Of a DNA stretch of 64,000 nucleotides, positions 3,669-62,916 are shown one piece after another. Made by a program: the position numbers and the translations under genes. Within the stretch, counting starts at the first letter, position 1. Each line of letters begins with the position of its first letter. A model generated the notes under the pieces. It worked only from the letters and a program-made list of their open reading frames with translations, did no database searches and had not been told where the DNA came from. Source of the stretch: Roseobacter weihaiensis (GTDB taxonomy: Bacteria > Pseudomonadota > Alphaproteobacteria > Rhodobacterales > Rhodobacteraceae); assembly GCF_020622345.1 (NCBI RefSeq), contig NZ_JACNMO010000029.1, positions 1 to 64,000 of the forward strand, given 5' to 3'.

Positions 3669-4400
3669 ATGCCGGATGTGATTGATCAGGGGACAGGACC
3701 GGTTGTGGTTTTTCTGCATGGTGCCGGAGTTGACAACAGGCTCTGGGATCCCCAGGTCGCCGCTTTTGAGCAGACCCACAGGGTCATTGTGCCGAATTTG
3801 CCGGGGCATGGTGGGGTTCCCGCGGTCACGGACGTGACCCAGATGGCAGATCATGTCAGAGCGGTGCTGAAGGACCTTGGGATTACGCGTTATGCTGTTG
3901 TCGGCCTATCCCTTGGGGGCATGGTCGCATTGGATATGGCGGGCCGATGGCCAGAGGAAGTGACCCATCTTGCCATGATCGAATCCGTTCCCATTGTGAC
4001 GGACCATCCCGCGTTGCGTGCTTTTGGAAAGCTGGTGATCGGAATGTTTCGTTTCGTACCGCCCAAGCTTCTGGCCAAGCTGCCGGCTCGGCAGATGGGT
4101 GCTGAGTCAACCGATGCGGCCAGGTATCTCAAACAAGCGCTCTCCAAAGGCACCGCGCATAACACATACCAAGTATTGCGTGCTGCTCTGGCTTATGACG
4201 GGCGTGCGTATCTGCCAATGATCCAAATGCCAACGATGGTTCTCGTGGGTGAAAGGAACAAGGCCACGCATGCGCGGGCGCAGGGCATGTGTGATGTGAT
4301 CGTGCATTCCGAGTTTTTCGTCGTGCCGGCTGCGGGGCATATTGCCAATCTTGACGCGCCGGAGTTTGTCACCACCCGCTTGAAAGTGCTGCTGACTTAA
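3669..4400 (+). CDS. Alpha/beta hydrolase
   Basis: The 243-residue product has the alpha/beta-hydrolase fold signature. There is an oxyanion loop at HGAG (His17-Gly18), the nucleophile elbow GLSLGG with Ser81, and a C-terminal catalytic His224 in AAGHIANLDAP. The acidic member is probably the Glu in LVGERN rather than the more usual Asp. The best match by eye is the 3-oxoadipate enol-lactonase/haloperoxidase-like group, but the substrate cannot be named. ATG 3669 is chosen over an in-frame GTG at 3660. The gene interrupts the S10 operon between rplW and rplB and is preceded by a terminator. Confidence 0.85.
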   Translation: MPDVIDQGTGPVVVFLHGAGVDNRLWDPQVAAFEQTHRVIVPNLPGHGGVPAVTDVTQMADHVRAVLKDLGITRYAVVGLSLGGMVALDMAGRWPEEVTHLAMIESVPIVTDHPALRAFGKLVIGMFRFVPPKLLAKLPARQMGAESTDAARYLKQALSKGTAHNTYQVLRAALAYDGRAYLPMIQMPTMVLVGERNKATHARAQGMCDVIVHSEFFVVPAAGHIANLDAPEFVTTRLKVLLT

Positions 4401-4515: not shown

Positions 4516-4615
4516 TTCGCCTTTGTCCATATGGACATCCAAGTCGGGCACCTACGGGGGCCTTTATACCATAGGCGTCGCGAGGCGCCGCACAGCAAAA
4601 CGGAAGACAGACAAC

Positions 4616-46113: not shown

Positions 46114-46190
46114 GGACCGATAGCTCAGCTGGATAGAGTACTTGACTACGAATCAAGGGGTCGGGGGTTCGAATCCTCCTCGGTCCGCCA
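46114..46190 (+). tRNA. tRNA-Arg(ACG)
   Basis: Acceptor stem GGACCGA/TCGGTCC, D-arm TAGCTCAGCTGGATAGAG, anticodon stem CTTGA/TCAAG with loop CTACGAA (anticodon ACG, read as ICG after deamination), T-arm GGGGGTTCGAATCCTCC, discriminator G and encoded CCA. The transposon-like element starts 9 bp after the CCA, so this tRNA is the probable attachment landmark. Confidence 0.97.
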
Positions 46191-46193
46191 CTT

Positions 46194-46664
46194 AATCTCT
46201 GTCGAACGTCAGATGACTTTGACCTTTGCGTCATAAACTGACCTGATCCGCTGCCACGGCCCATTTGGGTTGTTTCGTTTGATCCCGTTTCCCAGCCGGA
46301 AAATCGGGGGCGATTTGAAGGTCAGACGGCGCAGCCGCCTGTTCCTGCAAATCTGCCACGTGGCGAACGCGGAAGGGGGCGAGACAGGACAAATCGACGA
46401 GGTTGGTGCGGCCCGCAGCGGAGCGAGGACACGGCCTTGTCTATTTGTCTTGTCCGAGGGGGAGGGCGGCGCCCTCACCCTGACGGCGCAGGGCGTTTGG
46501 CTTGCCCAAATCCCCTAAGCCAAAGAAAGAGAAGCGACGCGGGACTGGCCGCGTCTCAGTTCAGTGATCGGTGACGGATGAAGAGCCATCGTTGATGCGT
46601 CGCCCGACGACGGCGTCGGGAGAGCCCAATGACAGTGATGCGCAGATAGCGCCCTTTGCAAAGT
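46194..46664 (+). repeat. 470-bp repeat, copy 1 (inverted partner at 58700-59169)
   Basis: The segment from AATCTCTGTCGAACG to the TTTGCAAAGT motif is nearly identical, in reverse complement, to 58700-59169, with a few substitutions and about one indel. It covers the left end of the 46200 transposon, the conserved stem-loop and two perfect hairpins (46536-46555 and 46603-46620). Short frames within it exist in both copies but look like by-products of structure, not genes. Confidence 0.9.
46383..46454 (+). ncRNA. Candidate structured RNA/DNA element, copy A
   Basis: A 12-bp stem (46383-46394 with 46443-46454, one wobble) encloses a 48-nt loop containing GGTGCGGCCCGCAG and GAGGACACGGCC and ending in TTGTCT. 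Within the loop GACA/TGTC can pair. It lies 183 bp inside the TGT end. The same loop, with a stem of unrelated sequence, is found at 49939-50012. A GAGGGCG/CGCCCTC hairpin (46462-46476) and the box TCCCCTAAGCC follow downstream. The transcribed strand is not known. Confidence 0.6.
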
Positions 46665-46716
46665 CGCGGCATCTGCCAGTCGGATGGCATTCCAATGCTG
46701 CACGAGCAACGAATGG

Positions 46717-46812
46717 AGCAGACCTTCGCCGCAGGTGCAGCCACCAAACGTCCCCGAACTGGAAGTCGGCGGGACTCTGCTGCCCTGCGTGGGCTAAGCT
46801 CGAAGGTCTGCT
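46717..46812. repeat. 96-nt element bounded by 12-bp perfect inverted repeats
   Basis: AGCAGACCTTCG (46717-46728) and CGAAGGTCTGCT (46801-46812) are exact reverse complements enclosing 72 nt. Outer ATGG/CCAT can extend the pairing. It overlaps the 3' end of the SDR gene. Its length and form resemble two other elements at 47801-47895 and 48606-48702. Confidence 0.6.
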
Positions 46813-47690
46813 ATCCATCGGGAGGTCGGTTCGGCGAAGTCAATGAATCGTGGTTGCCAGCAAACGGCAGACTGCAGTTTCCGCGCCGACATTTGCTGAT
46901 CGAGGGTCGGGCCTTTCGCCCACGTCCCGTTCTCTTTCACAGCCTCATCCACGGTCCGGATCACAGGTTCTGTTGGAGACCCGAAGGCTTCGGAGATGAC
47001 GGAAGTGATCCTGCCAACGGTGACACCTTCTTCAGCAACCGCATTGAAGTACCCCACAAGGTCAGAGCGTTCCACGAGGTCGCAATAGGCTCGGGCTAAA
47101 TCTGAGCTTTCGATGAGGGGCCAGCGCGTCGCCAGACTCCCCCAGATTTCAATTCTTTGACCGGTCTTCGCAGCGGACAAGAAGCGAAAGAACACTCCAC
47201 CGTCTCGCGTGTCATATACCATCGCCGGATGGACAATCGCCGTGCGCAGTTGAGGCGCGTCGAGGAGCATCTGGGCATGCGTAACCATCCAAGAAAACGC
47301 GGGAAGAGGGTTAAATGGTCGGTCTTCCATTGCGATCTCGTCGCCAGTTTCACCGTAGAGCCAGCATCCCCCAGTATAGATTAGGCGGGTCGGGGCGCTC
47401 CGAGTTTCTGCCGCCTGCGCCAAGGCTTTCATCGCTTTGGCGTCCACATCGCCCATATCTTCACCAAACGTCGCAGCAGCCTGAATGATCGCGTCGGATG
47501 AGACAGCCACATCTGCCCAGCTATTAGGTTCTGTAAGGTTGCCTCTGAAAGGCGTCGCGCCAGCGGACATGAGTAGTTTGTCGGACTTTTCCGAGCGGCT
47601 TAAAGCCAAAACTTGATGGTTTCGGCTTACCAGTTCCGCAACGACAGCCGTTCCGATTGTACCTGTACCACCCAATATGAATACTTGCAC
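46794..47690 (-). CDS. NAD(P)-dependent epimerase/dehydratase (extended SDR)
   Basis: The 298-residue product starts with the Rossmann motif FILGGTGTIGTAVV and keeps the SDR N-terminal strand-turn pattern. The active-site Tyr of the YxxxK motif is not clear: the region around GGCWLYGETGDE and WMVTHAQMLL replaces it, so it may be an atypical NmrA/epimerase-like member. The GTG at 47690 is chosen because GGAGG lies at the right distance; a TTG eight codons upstream is less likely. It is cargo of the 46200-49751 element. Confidence 0.8.
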   Translation of the reverse strand: MQVFILGGTGTIGTAVVAELVSRNHQVLALSRSEKSDKLLMSAGATPFRGNLTEPNSWADVAVSSDAIIQAAATFGEDMGDVDAKAMKALAQAAETRSAPTRLIYTGGCWLYGETGDEIAMEDRPFNPLPAFSWMVTHAQMLLDAPQLRTAIVHPAMVYDTRDGGVFFRFLSAAKTGQRIEIWGSLATRWPLIESSDLARAYCDLVERSDLVGYFNAVAEEGVTVGRITSVISEAFGSPTEPVIRTVDEAVKENGTWAKGPTLDQQMSARKLQSAVCWQPRFIDFAEPTSRWIADLRA

Positions 47691-47800
47691 CAATTGTCCT
47701 CCAACTCGAGACAAATCGAACGTTTACAACCTCAACCTAGGTTGAGATCAAGCACTAATTTTACAGAAACGGACCTTCGCGCGCGCCGCAGCATTCGGAG

Positions 47801-47895
47801 GTTTGGGCTCACTGCCGCCTTGCGGCGGTGCAGTAGCGGTGTTGCGGCGAAACCCGTGGAAGAGATCCCCGCCTGATGACACAGCCAGCCCAAAC
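47801..47895. repeat. 95-nt palindromic repeat R1
   Basis: GTTTGGGCT and AGCCCAAAC close a 95-nt unit. The interior shares GGGCTCACTGCCG-CTTGCGGCGGTGC with the unit at 48606-48702. R1 and R2 lie on either side of the deaminase-like gene, like the borders of a cassette. Confidence 0.6.
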
Positions 47896-48189
47896 TCGAC
47901 ATTCATGCAAGGCTAAGCGAAGACTATGCTGCACGAGCGAAAGACTTCCCGGAAGCGGACCTTCGATTCTGTTCTACTGGCCAGCGTGACGCTGCGTCGC
48001 GTCAAAACGGGAGCGAAGCGCAGATAGAGAACTTTGCAAACTCGGACGGTTGACGCAACGAGCCATGGTTTTGTGCTGCGGCGCAGCCCGCCGTTCCTGC
48101 CGTTCGCTGCGACTGCGAGGCTCTGGAACCGGTAAACTTACACAGTGCGGGACATTGCTGCCGTTCGGTGCTTAATGTAAATCTACTCC

Positions 48190-48597
48190 ATGACACTTGA
48201 AGAACAGATTCACAGGTCAGCTGTTGAACTTGCTGAACAGCGTTATCCGACTGGATGGGCTGGCGCAGCAGCGATTAGGCTAGAAAGCGGCGAAATTGTA
48301 ACAAGTGTTGCGCCGGATACTGATTTAGATGCGTTGTCACTCTGTATGGAAGTCGGCGGCATGCTTGAAGCGCACAAGCAAAACAAGGCTGTTACGCACA
48401 GTCTTTGTGTATTTAGAGATGATGAGAAAGCGGCATTCAAGTTTCTGACACCGTGCGGGATTTGCCAAGAAAGACTACGCTATTGGGGGCGTGATGTATT
48501 GGTCGCTGTTACAAACATGAACAATGAACTTGTTTTCAAGCGGCTTGGAGAATTGCAGGAATTCCATTGGTCGATGGCCTACGAGAAACCAACTTGA
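48190..48597 (+). CDS. Cytidine deaminase-like protein
   Basis: The 135-residue product has the zinc-deaminase layout: Cys52-Met-Glu54 (LCMEVG, where the Glu would shuttle the proton) and PCGICQERL with Cys89 and Cys92. The first motif normally reads C/H-A-E; Met in the middle position is unusual. Spacing fits the free-nucleoside cytidine/blasticidin deaminase family. It could act on a nucleoside or on a modified base. It is flanked by the R1 and R2 repeats. Confidence 0.75.
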   Translation: MTLEEQIHRSAVELAEQRYPTGWAGAAAIRLESGEIVTSVAPDTDLDALSLCMEVGGMLEAHKQNKAVTHSLCVFRDDEKAAFKFLTPCGICQERLRYWGRDVLVAVTNMNNELVFKRLGELQEFHWSMAYEKPT

Positions 48598-48605
48598 GTA
48601 GTCTG

Positions 48606-48702
48606 CACTATTGGGCTCACTGCCGACTTGCGGCGGTGCGGCAACAGGATTGCAGCGGAACCGCGAGCCATGGCTGCCGCCAGATGACGCCAGCCGATAG
48701 TG
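48606..48702. repeat. 97-nt palindromic repeat R2
   Basis: CACTATTGGGCT and AGCCGATAGTG are complementary apart from one bulge and one wobble. The interior is similar to R1 (TTGGGCTCACTGCCG-CTTGCGGCGGTGC). The stem tips differ from R1 but are again self-complementary. It starts 9 bp after the deaminase-like gene stop. Confidence 0.6.
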
Positions 48703-48793
48703 ATGTAAATCGCTTTTTAAAAGTATGTTGTTGTTCCAGTCGCCACCTGATGCAGCGGTTTCATCTCCGTCAGCACATATTGCAGATGGACTA

Positions 48794-49309
48794 TCAGTCC
48801 TCAAGAAAATCGTGAACTCGACCGAGTGTTCCAACAAGTCCATCGAAAAAACCCGGAGCGGTGACGTTTACAAGACCCTCTGGTTCTGCCACGTCGCCCT
48901 CTTCAAAATAATGCTCACCCGGCTGCTTAATGTTAAATGGCAGATCGGTAGCGTTGCATAACTCTTCGTAGCTCCCTCCGCACCCATGTTTCAGCACATT
49001 TACCGCCAAGTAATAGTGCCAGATATCGTCCGCGAGTTCTGATTGACCTGAGCCCACCAGATGTTTCTTCAACTTTTTGAAAAACGAGCCGTTCTGAAAA
49101 TGGTGCTTCATCCTCGCTTCGAAGAGAGAGAACACACCGACAGCAGCGATCTCTACCTGAACCGTTGCCATTCGTAGACCGTTAATAAAAACGGTTTGCC
49201 CGCCTTGTTTATCCATTAACTCGAGCAATTCAGAAACATGCTCGTCGAACCGTCGTGCTGATACCGCTGCCGCTGAGAGTAGCAACGGCACACCATCTAT
49301 CGCTCCCAT
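48794..49309 (-). CDS. Hypothetical protein
   Basis: The 171-residue product starts at ATG 49309 with a good GGAGA site. It is mostly helical in character, with HHFQNGSFFKKLKKHL and DIWHYYLAVNVLKHGCGGSYEEL. The second stretch, with an (A)VNVLKHG core, recalls small HEPN-like or MAE_28990-type helical domains, but I cannot assign a family. It lies near the right end of the 46200-49751 element. Confidence 0.6.
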   Translation of the reverse strand: MGAIDGVPLLLSAAAVSARRFDEHVSELLELMDKQGGQTVFINGLRMATVQVEIAAVGVFSLFEARMKHHFQNGSFFKKLKKHLVGSGQSELADDIWHYYLAVNVLKHGCGGSYEELCNATDLPFNIKQPGEHYFEEGDVAEPEGLVNVTAPGFFDGLVGTLGRVHDFLED

Positions 49310-49648
49310 CGATTTTCTCCTGTAGTTTGCGGTGCTGAGACCATTGTCAATCTTGGAAAATACTCAAACACGAAAGGGCTCGAAATCGCCGTTAGGTGCT
49401 CATAGCCTGAAGGTTCGCTTTCAGGAATAGCCAGACTTTGCAAAGATCGCTTACTGCGTATGATTGCCCCTCGTGTAAAGCGCAGCATCAGCAAAGGCTG
49501 CGGCGTGCCGTTGAATGGCTGCTTCCGGGAAAATAACTTAAACTCTTCGCACACGCAGCGGAGCGGGATTTGCACCCTATACGAATGTCGGCTTTGGGCT
49601 CAAAACCGTCATTCTCTGCCTAAACGACGAATGGCCACTTTATAGGCT

Positions 49649-49688
49649 GGGTCAGAAATGCTTGACGTTTGGGTCAGAATTGCGTGAC
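49649..49688. repeat. Two 18-bp direct repeats near a transposon end
   Basis: GGGTCAGAAATGCTTGAC (49649-49666) and GGGTCAGAATTGCGTGAC (49671-49688) recur with a 22-bp period, about 60-100 bp from the ACA end at 49751. A related GGGTCAGTTTATGAC occurs near the ACA end at 59163. They look like transposase (TnsB-type) binding sites. Confidence 0.55.
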
Positions 49689-49751
49689 ATAGTTCGTCTG
49701 TTTCCTCAGGCTTTCGAGATCAATTGAGTCAAAGATTTGTGACGTTCCACA

Positions 49752-49825
49752 ATCTCTGTAAGGCGACACATAGTTCTTCCTTTTGCGACAGAACCTTTCC
49801 TTTGCCGACGCATAGCTTTGCTTTT
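49752..49825 (+). mobile_element. Second Tn7-like transposon end (reading right)
   Basis: Directly after the shared ATCTC (49752-49756) comes TGTAAGGCGACACATAGTTC, followed by two more similar units (TTGCGACAGAACCTTTCC from 49783 and TGCCGACGCATAGCTTTGC from 49803) with a spacing of about 21 bp. This is the layout of a Tn7-like end: a TGT terminus plus repeated TnsB sites. The matching opposite end is not in the window. Confidence 0.65.
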
Positions 49826-49865
49826 GATGAGTAGGGGCTGGCGGGTCAGACTTCCCCTCTCAAAA

Positions 49866-49910
49866 CAGGTTTTGAGCGAAGCCCTTCAGGGCGCTCGTCT
49901 CTAAAACCTG
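49866..49910 (+). other. Long hairpin before structured element B
   Basis: CAGGTTTT/AAAACCTG (49866-49873, 49903-49910) with inner GAGC/GCTC and GCCC/GGGC stems and a TTCA loop. It precedes the conserved stem-loop by 28 nt and may belong to the same transcript. Confidence 0.5.
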
Positions 49911-49938
49911 CTCCCGGCGAGGGTAGGGGGGTAGCAAG

Positions 49939-50012
49939 TGCAACTCAATTCGATAGGGTAGGTGCGGCCCGCAGGCAGAGCCGAGGACACGGCCCTGTCT
50001 AATTGAGTTGCA
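49939..50012 (+). ncRNA. Candidate structured RNA/DNA element, copy B
   Basis: TGCAACTCAATT and AATTGAGTTGCA form a perfect 12-bp stem around a 50-nt loop that matches copy A at over 80 percent of positions (GGTGCGGCCCGCAG...GCCGAGGACACGGCCCTGTCT). The stem sequence shares nothing with copy A, yet pairing is kept. It starts 182 bp inside the TGT end at 49757. It is followed by a GGGGAC-GAA-GTCCCC hairpin (50020-50034) and TAGCCC. Confidence 0.6.
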
Positions 50013-50058
50013 GGCGCGTGGGGACGAAGTCCCCTAGCCCTTCACTAATAAAAAGGCG

Positions 50059-51601
50059 GGCGTATTTCGTTGAAAAACTCGCCCTTGATCGGCGGGTAAG
50101 TCGCTGATTGAATTCTGTTAACGAGCGGGAGAATTGGCGATGATGGGACCTAGGCAGGAAGCTCAGGCGGCGCTGTTTTACGAGTTCTCGCTCGATGACC
50201 ACGTCCCTCAGGATCACCTGCTGCGGTCGATTGATCGGTTCGTCGATCTCGACGGTATTCGCACCCATCTTGCCCACTTCTACAGCCACACAGGGCGACC
50301 CTCGACCGATCCCGAACTGCTGATCCGTATGCTAATCGTCGGCTACTGCTTCGGCATCCGGTCCGAGCGTCGGCTCTGCGAGGAGGTGCACTTGAACCTC
50401 GCATATCGATGGTTCTGTCGGCTCGACTTGGCCGACCGCGTTCCCGACCATTCCACCTTTTCCAAGAACCGGCATGGGCGTTTCCGCGAGAGCGAACTGC
50501 TGCGCCATCTCTTTGAGACCACTGTCGCGCGGTGCATCGCGGAGGGTCTCGTCAGCGGTCAGCGCCTTGCGGTGGACGCCAGCCTGATCGAGGCGGACGC
50601 GAACAGGCAGTACTCGGCACCGAAAGAGGACTGGGACGTCGCGCGGATTGATGCGGACGCGGCCCCGCGCGCGGTTCGCGAGTATCTCGACACGCTGGAC
50701 GAGGCCGCATTCGGAGCGGCGACACCGGTCGAACCGAAGTTCACGTCCTATTCCGATCCGGCCAGCCAGTGGACGGCTGCCAGGAAAGGCCCTGCGTTCT
50801 TTGCCTATTCCGACAACTACCTGATCGACACGGATCACGGCGTGATCCTCGACGTGGAAGCGACGCGCTCTATCCGTCAGGCCGAGGTCGGATCGACGAA
50901 GACGATGCTGAACAGGGTCAGAGAGAAGTTCGAACTGCGCCCGGAACGGTTGATCGCCGACACGGCCTATGGGTCGGGTCCGATGCTCGGATGGTTGGTC
51001 GACGAAAAGATCGCGCCGCACATCCCAGTGATCGACAAGGCCGGCCGCACCGACGGCACCTGGTCCAGGGCAGACTTCGAATGGGACGCCGAGAACAACC
51101 AGTACATCTGCCCGGAAGGGGAAGCTCTGAAGCAGTTCCGCCGAAACTACTCGGACCCCAATCGCGGCCCAACCGGCAAGGGCGTGGCCAAGTACCAGGC
51201 GCTGAAGAACACCTGCCAAACCTGTCCGTCCAAGCCGAAGTGCTGCCCGAACGCCGATGCCCGAAAGATCACCCGTGAGCAACATGAGGATGCTCGCGAC
51301 ATCGCTCGCGCGATCGCCAAAACGCCGCAATACAAAATCTCGATGAAGCTCAGAAAGAAGGTCGAGATGCTCTTCGCGCACCTCAAGCGCATTCTCGGTC
51401 TGGGACGGCTCCGATTACGCGGTCCATGCGGCGCCAACGACGAATTCCTCCTCGCCGCCACCGCCCAGAACCTCCGCAAACTGGCGAAGCTCTTTCCTGC
51501 ACCGCAGCATTCGCGAAAAGCGTGACGGAAGAACGGCTTGTAGCCCTCCAAAGTCTGCGACCAGGCACCGTCCAACGCGTTGTTTTTACACAGAATCGGC
51601 G
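50059..51601 (+). mobile_element. IS1182-family insertion sequence
   Basis: The transposase gene is bracketed by imperfect inverted repeats: TTCGTTGAAAAACTCG near 50066-50081 and, inverted, TTCTGTGTAAAAACAACG near 51578-51595. Exact ends and the target duplication could not be fixed by eye. It lies in the second Tn7-like element, just after structured element B. Confidence 0.7.
50140..51525 (+). CDS. IS1182-family transposase
   Basis: The 461-residue DDE transposase has the N-terminal DUF772-type domain (DHLLRSIDRFVDL and the GRPSTDPELLIRMLIVGYCFGIRSERRLCEEV signature), a first catalytic Asp in LAVDASLIEADA, the second in ERLIADTAYGSG, a Cys-rich zinc-like segment (CQTCPSKPKCCPN) and the Glu in KKVEMLFAHLKRILGLGRLRLRG. 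It appears intact. ATG 50140 follows GGGAGA. An in-frame TTG two codons upstream is less likely. Confidence 0.92.
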   Translation: MMGPRQEAQAALFYEFSLDDHVPQDHLLRSIDRFVDLDGIRTHLAHFYSHTGRPSTDPELLIRMLIVGYCFGIRSERRLCEEVHLNLAYRWFCRLDLADRVPDHSTFSKNRHGRFRESELLRHLFETTVARCIAEGLVSGQRLAVDASLIEADANRQYSAPKEDWDVARIDADAAPRAVREYLDTLDEAAFGAATPVEPKFTSYSDPASQWTAARKGPAFFAYSDNYLIDTDHGVILDVEATRSIRQAEVGSTKTMLNRVREKFELRPERLIADTAYGSGPMLGWLVDEKIAPHIPVIDKAGRTDGTWSRADFEWDAENNQYICPEGEALKQFRRNYSDPNRGPTGKGVAKYQALKNTCQTCPSKPKCCPNADARKITREQHEDARDIARAIAKTPQYKISMKLRKKVEMLFAHLKRILGLGRLRLRGPCGANDEFLLAATAQNLRKLAKLFPAPQHSRKA

Positions 51602-58699: not shown

Positions 58700-59169
58700 A
58701 CTTTGCAAAGGTCGCTTTCTGCGCACCACTGTCATTGGGCTCTCCCGACGCCGTCGTCGGGCGACGCATCAACGATGGCTCTTCATCCGTCACCGATCAC
58801 TGAACTGAGACGCGGCCAGTCCCGCGTCGCTTCTCTTTCTTTGGCTTAGGGGATTTGGGCAAGCCAAACGCCCTGCGCCGTCAGGGTGAGGGCGCCGCCC
58901 TCCCCCTCGGACAAGACAAATAGACAAGGCCGTGTCCTCGCTCCGCTGCGGGCCGCACCAACCTCGTCGATTTGTCCTGTCTCGCCCCCCTCCGCGTTCG
59001 CCACGTGGCAGATTTGCAGGAGCAGGCGGCTTCGCCGTCTGACCTTCAAATCGCCCCCGATTTTCCGGTTGGGAAACGGGATCAAACGAAAAACCCCGAG
59101 GGGTCATGGTTGGGAATTGGGTCAGTTTATGACGCAAAGGTCAAAGTCATCTGACGTTCGACAGAGATT
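58700..59169 (-). repeat. 470-bp repeat, copy 2 (inverted relative to 46194-46664)
   Basis: Reverse complement of the 46194-46664 repeat. Its outer end reads CTGACGTTCGACA (59151-59163), then GAGAT, then the TGT of the next transposon end. A third exact-sequence copy of the conserved stem-loop lies in it at 58910-58981. Confidence 0.9.
58910..58981 (-). ncRNA. Candidate structured RNA/DNA element, duplicate of copy A
   Basis: On the minus strand this is base for base the same stem-loop as 46383-46454 and arose with the 470-bp repeat, so it is not independent evidence for the structure. Confidence 0.55.
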
Positions 59170-59280
59170 GTGGGGCGACACATAGTTTTTCCATTACCAC
59201 GGTGCTAAGTCATTGATTTTACTTCCCCCAGAATTCTCAGTAACGCACCAATTTTACCTTTTGCGACTCAAAGATCTTCC
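59169..59280 (+). mobile_element. Third Tn7-like transposon end (reading right)
   Basis: TGTGGGGCGACACATAGTTT starts at 59169, next to ACA-GAGAT, and a second site TTGCGACTCAAAGATCTTCC lies at 59261-59280. The first 17 bases resemble the Tn7 terminus as I remember it (TGTGGGCGGACAAAATAG). With the tnsA-tnsB pair to the right pointing back toward it, this is likely the left end of the element that carried them. Confidence 0.6.
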
Positions 59281-61095: not shown

Positions 61096-61263
61096 TTACA
61101 TGAGGTGCACCGTCACGGCCACAAAGAAGACGCAGGACGCCACCAACACGAATATGTGCCATATGGTGTTATGAAACGGCAGTTTCTCCCACAGGTAAAA
61201 AACCACGCCTGCGGTATAGAGCAAGCCGCCCGCGAATATCCTCGACAAAACCGCCTTCTCCGA
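61096..61263 (-). pseudogene. Hemolysin III (HlyIII/PAQR) C-terminal fragment
   Basis: In one minus-strand frame 55 codons read IFAGGLLYTAGVVFYLWEKL...PFHNTIWHIFVLVASCVFFV and end HLM-stop, the last two helices of HlyIII-family membrane proteins with the conserved His residues. The first helices are missing: upstream the sequence runs, in another frame, into the tnsB remnant. A deletion appears to have joined the two. Confidence 0.7.
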
Positions 61264-62176
61264 GACGGAGCGTCAGATCGTCTTGATGACAAATAACCGT
61301 TTGAACGGCTGCGAATACTGCATGGCTGCCCATTCCACGATCTCGCAAATGGCGGGCGTCGATCCTCATGTCGTCGACCCCATGTCGGTGCACATAGGTA
61401 TAATAGGGATCAAGCCGAGAGATCGCACGCTCAACCGAACGCCGTGACGGTATCGACAAAGTTGGTTTGCCCTGCCCGGCTCTCTCTTCATTGACACGGC
61501 GAAAGCGGTCCCGGCACAGGTCAGAAACCTGCTTCTTGGAAAGCCGCTGGCGCGTCAGATATGCTCCCATGCACTCTCCCAAAATACGCGTGGTCTCGAG
61601 ACAAAATCGACCATCGCGATTGCCCGACCGATGCGTTCGCGGGACAAGTGCGAGAGGTGAACAATCCGCATCTTCGAACCGCTTTACCCAAGTCCTCAAG
61701 GTCTTTGCGCACGGTGGGTCGCGAAACTGGTTCTTTCGACCAGCACGCGGGTTCTGCCACTTACTTTGCGCCGCCCGTGCCTGCGCGTTCACATGCGCTT
61801 CAATCCTCGGGAGTATCGCGGCAATAGAGTCATCCGTCTTTCGGACAACACCTTGCGCCGCAAAGTCTAGATACCCAGTTACAAACGCATGGCGCCAAAC
61901 GACCTCCGCCTGCTTGTCTTCAGGCAGACATCCAACGGCGATCACATTGGAGGACTGGCGAACATCTGTCCGGCCCTTGAGGAAGTGGCCTGGTTCGAAG
62001 GACACGTCTGATCTCAAGAACAGAGCGTCGAGTTCTTCAAACGTGTAGCTGATTTGGCGGTCTGACCTGGCCACCTCTTCGAACAGGTAACCAGAACTGG
62101 TTTGAGCAGAGAGACGGTAGGCTGTTCTCTTCACGACCAAGCGGTCCGCACTGGTGATGCGCATGCGTTTACTCAT
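61169..62176 (-). pseudogene. Truncated TnsB-like (Mu/Tn7) transposase
   Basis: The 335-codon frame keeps only the N-terminal part of a TnsB-type transposase, normally about 600-700 residues. HTH-type segments CAKTLRTWVKRFEDADCSPLALVPRT and SIPSRRSVERAISRLDPYYTYVHRHG are present. The catalytic DDE core that should follow is absent. After about residue 290 the frame runs out of phase through HlyIII-derived sequence. It overlaps tnsA by 4 bp (ATGA), the usual tnsAB order. It is not expected to be active. Confidence 0.75.
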
Positions 62177-62916
62177 AGCCCACCTCCCCGGCGCACTAAG
62201 GTGTCGTGATCGATTTCCTGTGTGACATCAGCGGCTAGCAGCCCCTCGTAAATCGCAATGAATATAGCTCGAAAACCCTCGGGCCCCGCGCCGAGAGCCA
62301 TTTGCACGTCTTGGAACTTTTGGGGGAACCGCAACGTCACGATCACAGCCAGCAGGTGGCGCATAAGGTGTTCGTTTCGGTTTTTTCGGAACGCAATGTA
62401 GCGTTCTGCATTCATGGCTTCCGCCCTGCCGAAGTCCCGATCTGTGATGAGGATCACGTCATCAGCAAAATCCTTCGTCATCGCGGCGCGAATAGCCGAA
62501 AGCTCCTGTGCGAAGCACGTGTTGATGACTCGTTTAGCCGGCTTGACGACAACGGCAAGTCGTCGCCCCGACCTCAACGTTACAAGAAAATCGAAGACAT
62601 GGTGTCGCCGACGCCCCCGGGCATCGTGATAGATGAACGCTTCGGGTTGCTCGCGCACATCCCAAGTGGATCGTTTGGCGAGCAGGAGAAACAACACGCG
62701 TTGTTCAAGTTTGCTCTCAAAGTACATGATCCTGCTATGATCATCTGCGGGCAAATCGACAACGATCCCACCCCTTGAACTCGCTCTCGACCTTTTTGCG
62801 ATCTCTCGCGTCGATCGGCTTTTAGCAGGCGCGACCAGTCCAGCGCCTTTGTCTTTTTCTTCGTGCATTCTTGTCTTGAAGAGCGCTGTCCACAGCTGGG
62901 ACAGCGTGGTCTCCAC
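62173..62916 (-). CDS. tnsA: TnsA-like transposon endonuclease
   Basis: TnsA cuts the 5' ends of Tn7-type transposons. The 247-residue product has the restriction-like core: a Glu in YFESKLEQR (Glu67 or Glu71), Asp109 in HHVFDFLVTLRSGRRL and Lys125 in AVVVKPAKRV. The E-D-K spacing matches TnsA. The C-terminal part (HLLAVIVTLRFPQK...) would bind TnsC. Start GTG 62916 is possible; ATG 62868 is an alternative. tnsC and tniQ are not found nearby. Confidence 0.78.
   Translation of the reverse strand: METTLSQLWTALFKTRMHEEKDKGAGLVAPAKSRSTREIAKRSRASSRGGIVVDLPADDHSRIMYFESKLEQRVLFLLLAKRSTWDVREQPEAFIYHDARGRRRHHVFDFLVTLRSGRRLAVVVKPAKRVINTCFAQELSAIRAAMTKDFADDVILITDRDFGRAEAMNAERYIAFRKNRNEHLMRHLLAVIVTLRFPQKFQDVQMALGAGPEGFRAIFIAIYEGLLAADVTQEIDHDTLVRRGGGL

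Follow-up and report, generated by a model that had tools for sequence, protein, structure and literature searches.

Minus-strand synthesis in the filamentous phages M13 and f1 is primed by RNA polymerase at the minus-strand origin, and the complementary-strand origins of G4 and phiX174 are served by DnaG and PriA, respectively. In the leading regions of the conjugative plasmids F and ColIb-P9, hairpins of the Frpo/ssi type are formed by single-stranded DNA (ssDNA), and one report describes Frpo transcripts as acting both as mRNA and as primer (PMC7736820). For RP4, a study of zygotic induction notes that ssDNA promoters of the induced genes had yet to be found (PMC7314908), and the sso elements of Gram-positive bacteria, for example that of ICEBs1, are described as serving second-strand synthesis of a conjugative element (PMC4595007). 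SsDNA promoters allow plasmid genes to act ahead of the host defence response, and few are known. Here we analyze a stretch of 64,000 nucleotides (nt) from Roseobacter weihaiensis (contig NZ_JACNMO010000029.1, positions 1 to 64,000; hereafter the window), in which three copies of a conserved hairpin are found at transposon ends. The hairpin is a member of a DNA hairpin family of Pseudomonadota that is present in plasmids, ssDNA phages and transposon ends, and by analogy with Frpo and the M13 minus-strand origin it probably works as an ssDNA initiator of host-driven synthesis.

The three copies in the window, with their scores under the covariance model of the family, are:

46383..46454, + strand: hairpin copy 1, with a 12-base-pair (bp) outer stem containing one G.T pair, the conserved core and an apical GC(GGA)GC mini-hairpin; 68.0 bits
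49939..50012, + strand: hairpin copy 2, with a perfect 12-bp outer stem, the conserved core and an apical GGC(AGA)GCC mini-hairpin; 69.1 bits
58910..58981, - strand: hairpin copy 3, near-identical to copy 1 and sitting in an inverted element end; 68.0 bits

An earlier sequence-only reading of this DNA had noticed the first two copies and claimed that their 12-bp arms differ yet pair, around a conserved loop placed at the same distance inside two transposon ends, and both claims are borne out. The arms of copy 1 (46383-46394 and 46443-46454) pair throughout with one G.T and those of copy 2 (49939-49950 and 50001-50012) pair perfectly; the inner 48 and 50 nt are identical at 42 of 50 aligned columns; and the first stem base lies 183 nt (copy 1) and 182 nt (copy 2) from the TGT at 46200 and 49757, respectively. 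The third copy was absent from that reading, and its end equals the end of copy 1 at 446 of 465 aligned positions. RNA folding of 46380-46460 (z -6.2) and of 49935-50045 (z -5.5) was in each case better than all 200 shuffles, and CGAGGACACGGCCYTGTCTA, with up to three mismatches, has three sites in the window against 0.00 expected. Across the whole genome the covariance model detects six copies: the three in the window, one on C31 and two on C27.

The family is built of a variable, compensating outer stem, a core (GGTGCGGCCCGCAG...CGAGGACACGGCC) and a GNA triloop mini-hairpin at the apex; the 5' part of the core (TTGGTGCGGCCCGCA) and its 3' part (GAGGACACGG) both lie inside the outer stem. Of 140 distinct contexts, 118 carry C(GNA)G as the apical triloop, on a mini-hairpin stem that varies in sequence with its pairing kept. 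Triloops of the GNA type are exceptionally stable in DNA. What the analysis shows is predicted structure, covariation, strand and position. In an alignment of 34 diverse sequences (representatives selected for differing flanks, with three other copies added and with loci L039 and L045, both poorly paired beyond the inner stem, left out), 75 cells show double changes as compared with 32.6 after shuffling, and 79.7% are paired as compared with 60.6%; none of 500 shuffles matched either value, and structures slid along the alignment reached at most 48.1%. When L039 and L045 were included (36 sequences), the outer stem was paired in 214 of 288 cells (58.7% in shuffles) with 63 double changes against 29.6, again with none of 500 shuffles as good. 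Compensation, from which the sequence-only reading had argued for selected structure with a stem free to vary, holds in both sets, and that part of its interpretation is supported. Moreover, of 144 distinct contexts, 119 have own-flank pairing above the 95th percentile of shuffles. The locus L081 is included in this count and in that of the triloops; from the promoter-box counts onward L081, L192 and L203 (likely chance matches without a stem), duplicate window loci and matches too near a locus end were left out. RNAalifold proposes an alternative register, with GGT paired to GCC, and in DNA folding the strand named here is more stable than its complement in four of four pairs, by 0.7 to 10.9 kcal/mol. 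In L170, L183 and L202 the base after CACGG is G rather than C and the T of GGTGCGG is C; the two positions are possibly in contact.

The distribution of the hairpin is broad. The pattern GCGGCCCRCAG-N4-9-CGAGGACACGGYC matches at least 117 stretches in a species-genome collection, where all 80 titles listed belong to Pseudomonadota, and 18 stretches in viral contigs. One plasmid query matched 337 PLSDB records, 214 of them typed as conjugative, and two further queries gave 153 and 226 matches in overlapping sets; the hairpin is also carried by plasmids of 2.3-3.0 kb. Covariance model R1 detected it in 4 of 120 genomes sampled from the phylum, the R. weihaiensis genome included. An initial 17-base scan, positive in 52 of 295 genomes, was too loose, the full motif being present in 8 of 30 fetched loci. 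Because the same hairpin occurs in unrelated ssDNA phages and plasmids, its distribution suggests that one host enzyme reads all copies.

Among microviruses and Zot-type filamentous phages the hairpin has the same sense as the capsid, Rep or Zot genes wherever the strand could be read, at 12 of 12 loci (several of these phages are related, and L199 is uninformative), and it is therefore placed on the packaged, viral strand. On the viral contig L199 itself, capsid and Rep matches lie on either strand and the hairpin is in both orientations; the assembly may be chimeric. In plasmid-type copies the hairpin is found on the template strand of ArdC and DUF932 genes, about 160-225 nt upstream. Specifically, the ArdC start lies 160-226 nt on the hairpin's 5' side and on the opposite strand at the seven loci with ArdC within 400 nt, and at L226 as well (for L211, one alternative start estimate gives 370 nt); in L173 and L009, ArdC is 2.2-2.4 kb distant and has the same sense as the hairpin. 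All 61 loci with a DUF932 gene, most of them from one lineage, have it on the opposite strand and to the 5' side, at 211-224 nt in the 40 listed, and ParB is so placed in 62 of 65 match entries (several entries per locus); Pfam confirms DUF932, ParB_N, ArdcN and Toprim in the tested examples. On C27 of the R. weihaiensis genome, which has two hairpins, ArdC lies 226 nt from one and a large ParB gene 0.7 kb 5' of the other. For distinct flanks outside phages and recognized transposon ends, an outward Shine-Dalgarno sequence followed by the start of any open reading frame (ORF) of at least 60 amino acids is present on the 5' side in 51 of 69 and on the 3' side in 23 of 69.

This strand pattern bears on the idea that the hairpin is an RNA element, either a small RNA or a leader, transcribed in the hairpin's own sense. 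Its strong RNA folding and its agreement in ssDNA phages with the sense of the capsid, Rep or Zot genes would fit such an element, but the ArdC and DUF932 genes of the plasmid type run the opposite way on the 5' side, and no Rfam family claims the hairpin: none does so at the gathering score in a search of the whole window, and for 46300-46600, searched at E values up to 5, the best score was 15.2 bits against a gathering score of 46.6, with nothing credible among the matches. We consider an RNA element very unlikely.

Equally relevant is where the hairpin occurs. Two Rhodobacteraceae module types account for 36 distinct matches, of which 26 have a TGT end recognized by pattern, and the distance from TGT to core is 204-206 nt in 16 of these 26 transposon-linked copies (193-224 in 7 and 292-293 in 3). 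Such regularity would be expected of a transposon-specific element, whether a target record, an RNA guide or an end structure, but many copies have no such end, neither of the transposon-end module types occurs in 135 of 174 family matches, and the window contains no further match to the stems; we attach almost no credence to that explanation. In a search confined to the window, the two stem 12-mers, with up to one mismatch, were found nowhere beyond the hairpin arms; within subfamilies, moreover, the same stems reappear in different genera. Of the three options that the sequence-only reading had offered, the ssDNA folding site is supported, the stem as a record of its target finds no support, and a transposon-encoded RNA explains the strand pattern badly; its view of the hairpin as a feature of transposons fails by its own measure, with copies in ssDNA phages, on plasmids and beside DUF932 and ParB genes. 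As a general account, an element confined to transposons is ruled out by these copies, while a secondary use there could remain.

A promoter-like box points to the direction of reading. Of 49 clusters of distinct flanks, 31 have TTGAY in the 3' arm, as compared with 3.5 expected from shuffles, and 5 have it in the 5' flank; RTCAA is present in the 5' flank in 30 of the 31. Oriented as it is in the folded strand, this -35-like box points to transcription that leaves the base of the stem along the 5' flank, where the genes lie. Among the 31 clusters, TANNNT is found at offsets of 18-22 from TTGAY 10 times, as against 4 times at all 39 other offsets together. In the Burkholderiales/Pseudomonas type, which has the pair TTGACG-N16-TACAGT, the predicted fold ends just before TACAGT. 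The filamentous-phage contigs L155, L164 and L194 have in common AAGCTCCGG about 20 nt past the stem TTGAC, and several other types have GCT at about the same distance. The hairpin might also be read as a double-stranded regulatory palindrome, a repressor or partition site resembling a hairpin by chance: TTGACG-N16-TACAGT looks like a double-stranded promoter in the Burkholderiales/Pseudomonas type and reads away from the genes, the outer stem is palindromic, and ParB and ArdC genes are close by. The core, however, is non-palindromic and orientation specific; the stem varies with its pairing kept, which a protein reading the sequence of double-stranded DNA would not need; and phages and plasmids share the hairpin with no evident common regulator, although no systematic search for one was made. 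We regard such a palindrome as highly improbable.

A further candidate is a single-strand initiation site that loads primase or a primosome, of the G4 or phiX174 type in function, with DnaG or PriA reading the core and the location upstream of genes being secondary. Such a site would suit copies beside rep genes as well as those of ssDNA phages and of tiny mobilizable plasmids. Among eight fetched plasmids with annotated rep (RepL plasmids not counted), the hairpin is opposite to the rep strand and 0.65-1.2 kb past the rep 3' end in five (L175, L176, L177, L185 and L186), an arrangement that resembles a priming site near an origin; L178, L183 and L184 are arranged otherwise. L183, a 4.2-kb Paracoccus plasmid, has hairpins at 3846-3908 (-) and 3980-4043 (+), inverted and about 70 bp apart, a pair reminiscent of paired initiation sites beside an origin and likewise in keeping with a priming site. 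Such a site nevertheless leaves unaccounted for the directional TTGAY and the start codons that plasmid-type copies have 150-225 nt to their 5' side, and there is no sequence similarity to the G4 or phiX174 sites. On balance a primase-loading site is unlikely.

We therefore return to the ssDNA initiator, for which folding in vivo, reading by RNA polymerase, transcription or priming, and any use by transposons are what we infer. When the carrier strand is single-stranded, as an incoming conjugated strand, a phage viral strand or a rolling-circle intermediate, the GNA-capped hairpin would fold, displaying the conserved core in its upper half, with a stem that would imitate duplex DNA. Docking on the folded hairpin, an enzyme of the host (most likely the sigma-70 RNA polymerase) would make RNA complementary to the hairpin strand, heading to the 5' side of that strand. 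This RNA could be the mRNA of establishment genes (ArdC, DUF932, ParB), a primer for the complementary strand, or both. A wider proposal, which we put forward tentatively and hold to be somewhat short of an even chance, is that one conserved ssDNA code (TTGGTGCGGCCCGCAG - GNA mini-hairpin - CGAGGACACGG) serves as a shared signal to start reading and copying ssDNA across mobile elements of Pseudomonadota that are not related to one another (microviruses and filamentous phages, small mobilizable and conjugative plasmids, and integrative elements), and that Tn7-like transposons carry it as a portable outward zygotic promoter or primer at the left end, such that the incoming end would be read or made double-stranded first. 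One covariance model that detects the motif in Alpha-, Beta- and Gammaproteobacteria would make it possible to map such regions from sequence, together with their anti-defence genes and the origins of ssDNA phages.

Several observations weigh against an ssDNA initiator. The complement strand folds as well in DNA folding, and 25 of the 144 contexts do not exceed the 95th percentile of shuffled pairing (L081 among them is a likely false match, and others have interrupted or short stems). TTGAY is absent from 18 of the 49 clusters and a -10-like box from most phage types; only the Burkholderiales/Pseudomonas type clearly shows a strong promoter pair. The DUF932 loci represent mostly a single lineage. 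Outward gene starts are no more frequent on the 5' side than on the 3' side at transposon ends (1 of 12 on each) or in phages (3 of 12 on each), and Burkholderia cenocepacia pBCJ2315, which has a DUF932/ParB/methyltransferase region, gave no significant match. The transferred strand, for which the origin of transfer (oriT) was placed from the position of the relaxase, gives a mixed picture: eight plasmid hairpins agree with it, namely the ArdC hairpins of L180 and L226, those of L171, L181 and L186, one of the two in L183 and, if the relaxase is positioned as guessed, L175 and L185; seven disagree, namely L173, L179, L184, L225, the other L183 hairpin and the second hairpins of L180 and L226.

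In the window the hairpins are parts of elements whose features are as follows.

46200..49751, + strand: element E1, 3.55 kb, with TGT...ACA ends and epimerase-like and weakly deaminase-like cargo
46195..46199, + strand: target-site duplication ATCTC, left
49752..49756, + strand: target-site duplication ATCTC, right, directly before the next element end at 49757
49757..49938, + strand: left end of a second element (TGTAAGGCGACACATAG...), up to hairpin copy 2
58982..59163, - strand: left end of a third element, inverted, up to hairpin copy 3
46114..46190, + strand: tRNA-Arg(ACG), neighbor of the E1 insertion
46312..46353, + strand: upstream hairpin A of the first end, GATTTG...CAAATC with inner CGGC-GCA-GCCG, read from the sequence
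49868..49908, + strand: putative upstream hairpin A of the second end, GGTTTT...AAAACC, read from the sequence

That the ends are real transposon ends, as the sequence-only reading had it, is confirmed by E1, whose TGT...ACA termini are flanked by ATCTC on both sides; such termini with a 5-bp duplication are those of Tn7/Tn5053-like transposons. No transposase gene was seen in E1. A tRNA-Arg motif lies just outside the end in 13 of the 26 transposon-linked copies. Two end types are found in combination with two module types, and the position has thus been kept while parts were exchanged; at Rhodobacteraceae left ends the module is oriented outward, across the end. Here it may serve as a portable promoter for zygotic expression, or as a primer that acts early on the end. 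A search of 248 genomes with the left-end repeat found 10 places in 7 genomes: one new left end (L216), with the hairpin present; L214, L215, L218 and L222, which carry it at places already known; L213, L219, L220 and L221, without it and apparently right ends or weak matches; and L217, which runs off its contig. In Rhodobacteraceae, comparison by eye shows the second hairpin (A) on the 5' side both at transposon ends and in ArdC leaders, and folds resembling it precede plasmid ArdC start codons. The stretch 46309-46350 folds modestly better than shuffles (z -1.55; 18 of 200 shuffles equally good).

Other features of the window concern the surrounding elements. An IS1182-family transposase gene (50134-51525, + strand) lies just inside the second left end. 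An inversion or nested insertions are suggested by the left ends at 49757 (+) and 59163 (-), which point toward each other. At 61169-62916 (-), near a right end of the second type (59169-59182), a TnsA-like gene is adjoined by an ORF in the position of TnsB; the TnsA-like N-terminal domain (62176-62916) scores 28.9 bits against a Pfam cut-off of 26.5 and is under the NCBIfam cut-off, and the adjoining ORF has no family match. An ordinary feature is the L2-Alphaproteobacteria ribosomal protein leader (Rfam RF03142) at 4546-4613 (+).

Published surveys of ssDNA promoters have relied on BLAST: one of 2024 started from five Frpo/ssi sequences plus new candidates (PMC11541004), and another used 18 sequences (PMC12826799). 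Of Frpo/ssi sites, our comparison covered those of the F leading region, and the hairpin may be identical to a candidate of either survey. Text searches of the literature (core strings; Frpo, ssi, complementary-strand and Tn7-like terms), which did not reach supplements or subscription papers, returned no description of the motif. Gram-positive sso elements, likened here by description, are like the proposed initiator elements for second-strand synthesis, but belong to another phylum. The complementary-strand origins of G4 and phiX174 are similar in that they too are stem-loops on the viral strand of microviruses, and GCGAAGC occurs in the phiX174 F-G region as well; neither site was matched by covariance model or alignment. 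The minus-strand origin of M13/f1 is likewise a viral-strand hairpin of filamentous phages, and the copies in L156 and L157 come close after the Zot-type gene; the M13 intergenic region gave no match by alignment or covariance model. Left ends of Tn7/Tn5053-like transposons agree in their TGT...ACA termini, 5-bp duplication and insertion beside a tRNA gene, but a hairpin module inside such an end is not known from their anatomy. The F leading region, in which ssb, ParB, psiB and DUF932 are all on one strand, showed no similarity to the hairpin by alignment or covariance-model scan, and the family appears, on sequence, to be separate from both Frpo and the M13 minus-strand origin. By comparison with Frpo/ssi, the family has its own GC-rich core and GNA apex, a mostly unclear -10, and members in ssDNA phages and transposon ends. 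The family resembles Frpo/ssi in its predicted ssDNA fold, in a -35-like box in the stem of 31 of the 49 clusters, in the possibility of more than one per replicon (two on C27) and, for plasmid-type copies but not for transposon ends, in lying on the template strand upstream of establishment-type genes.

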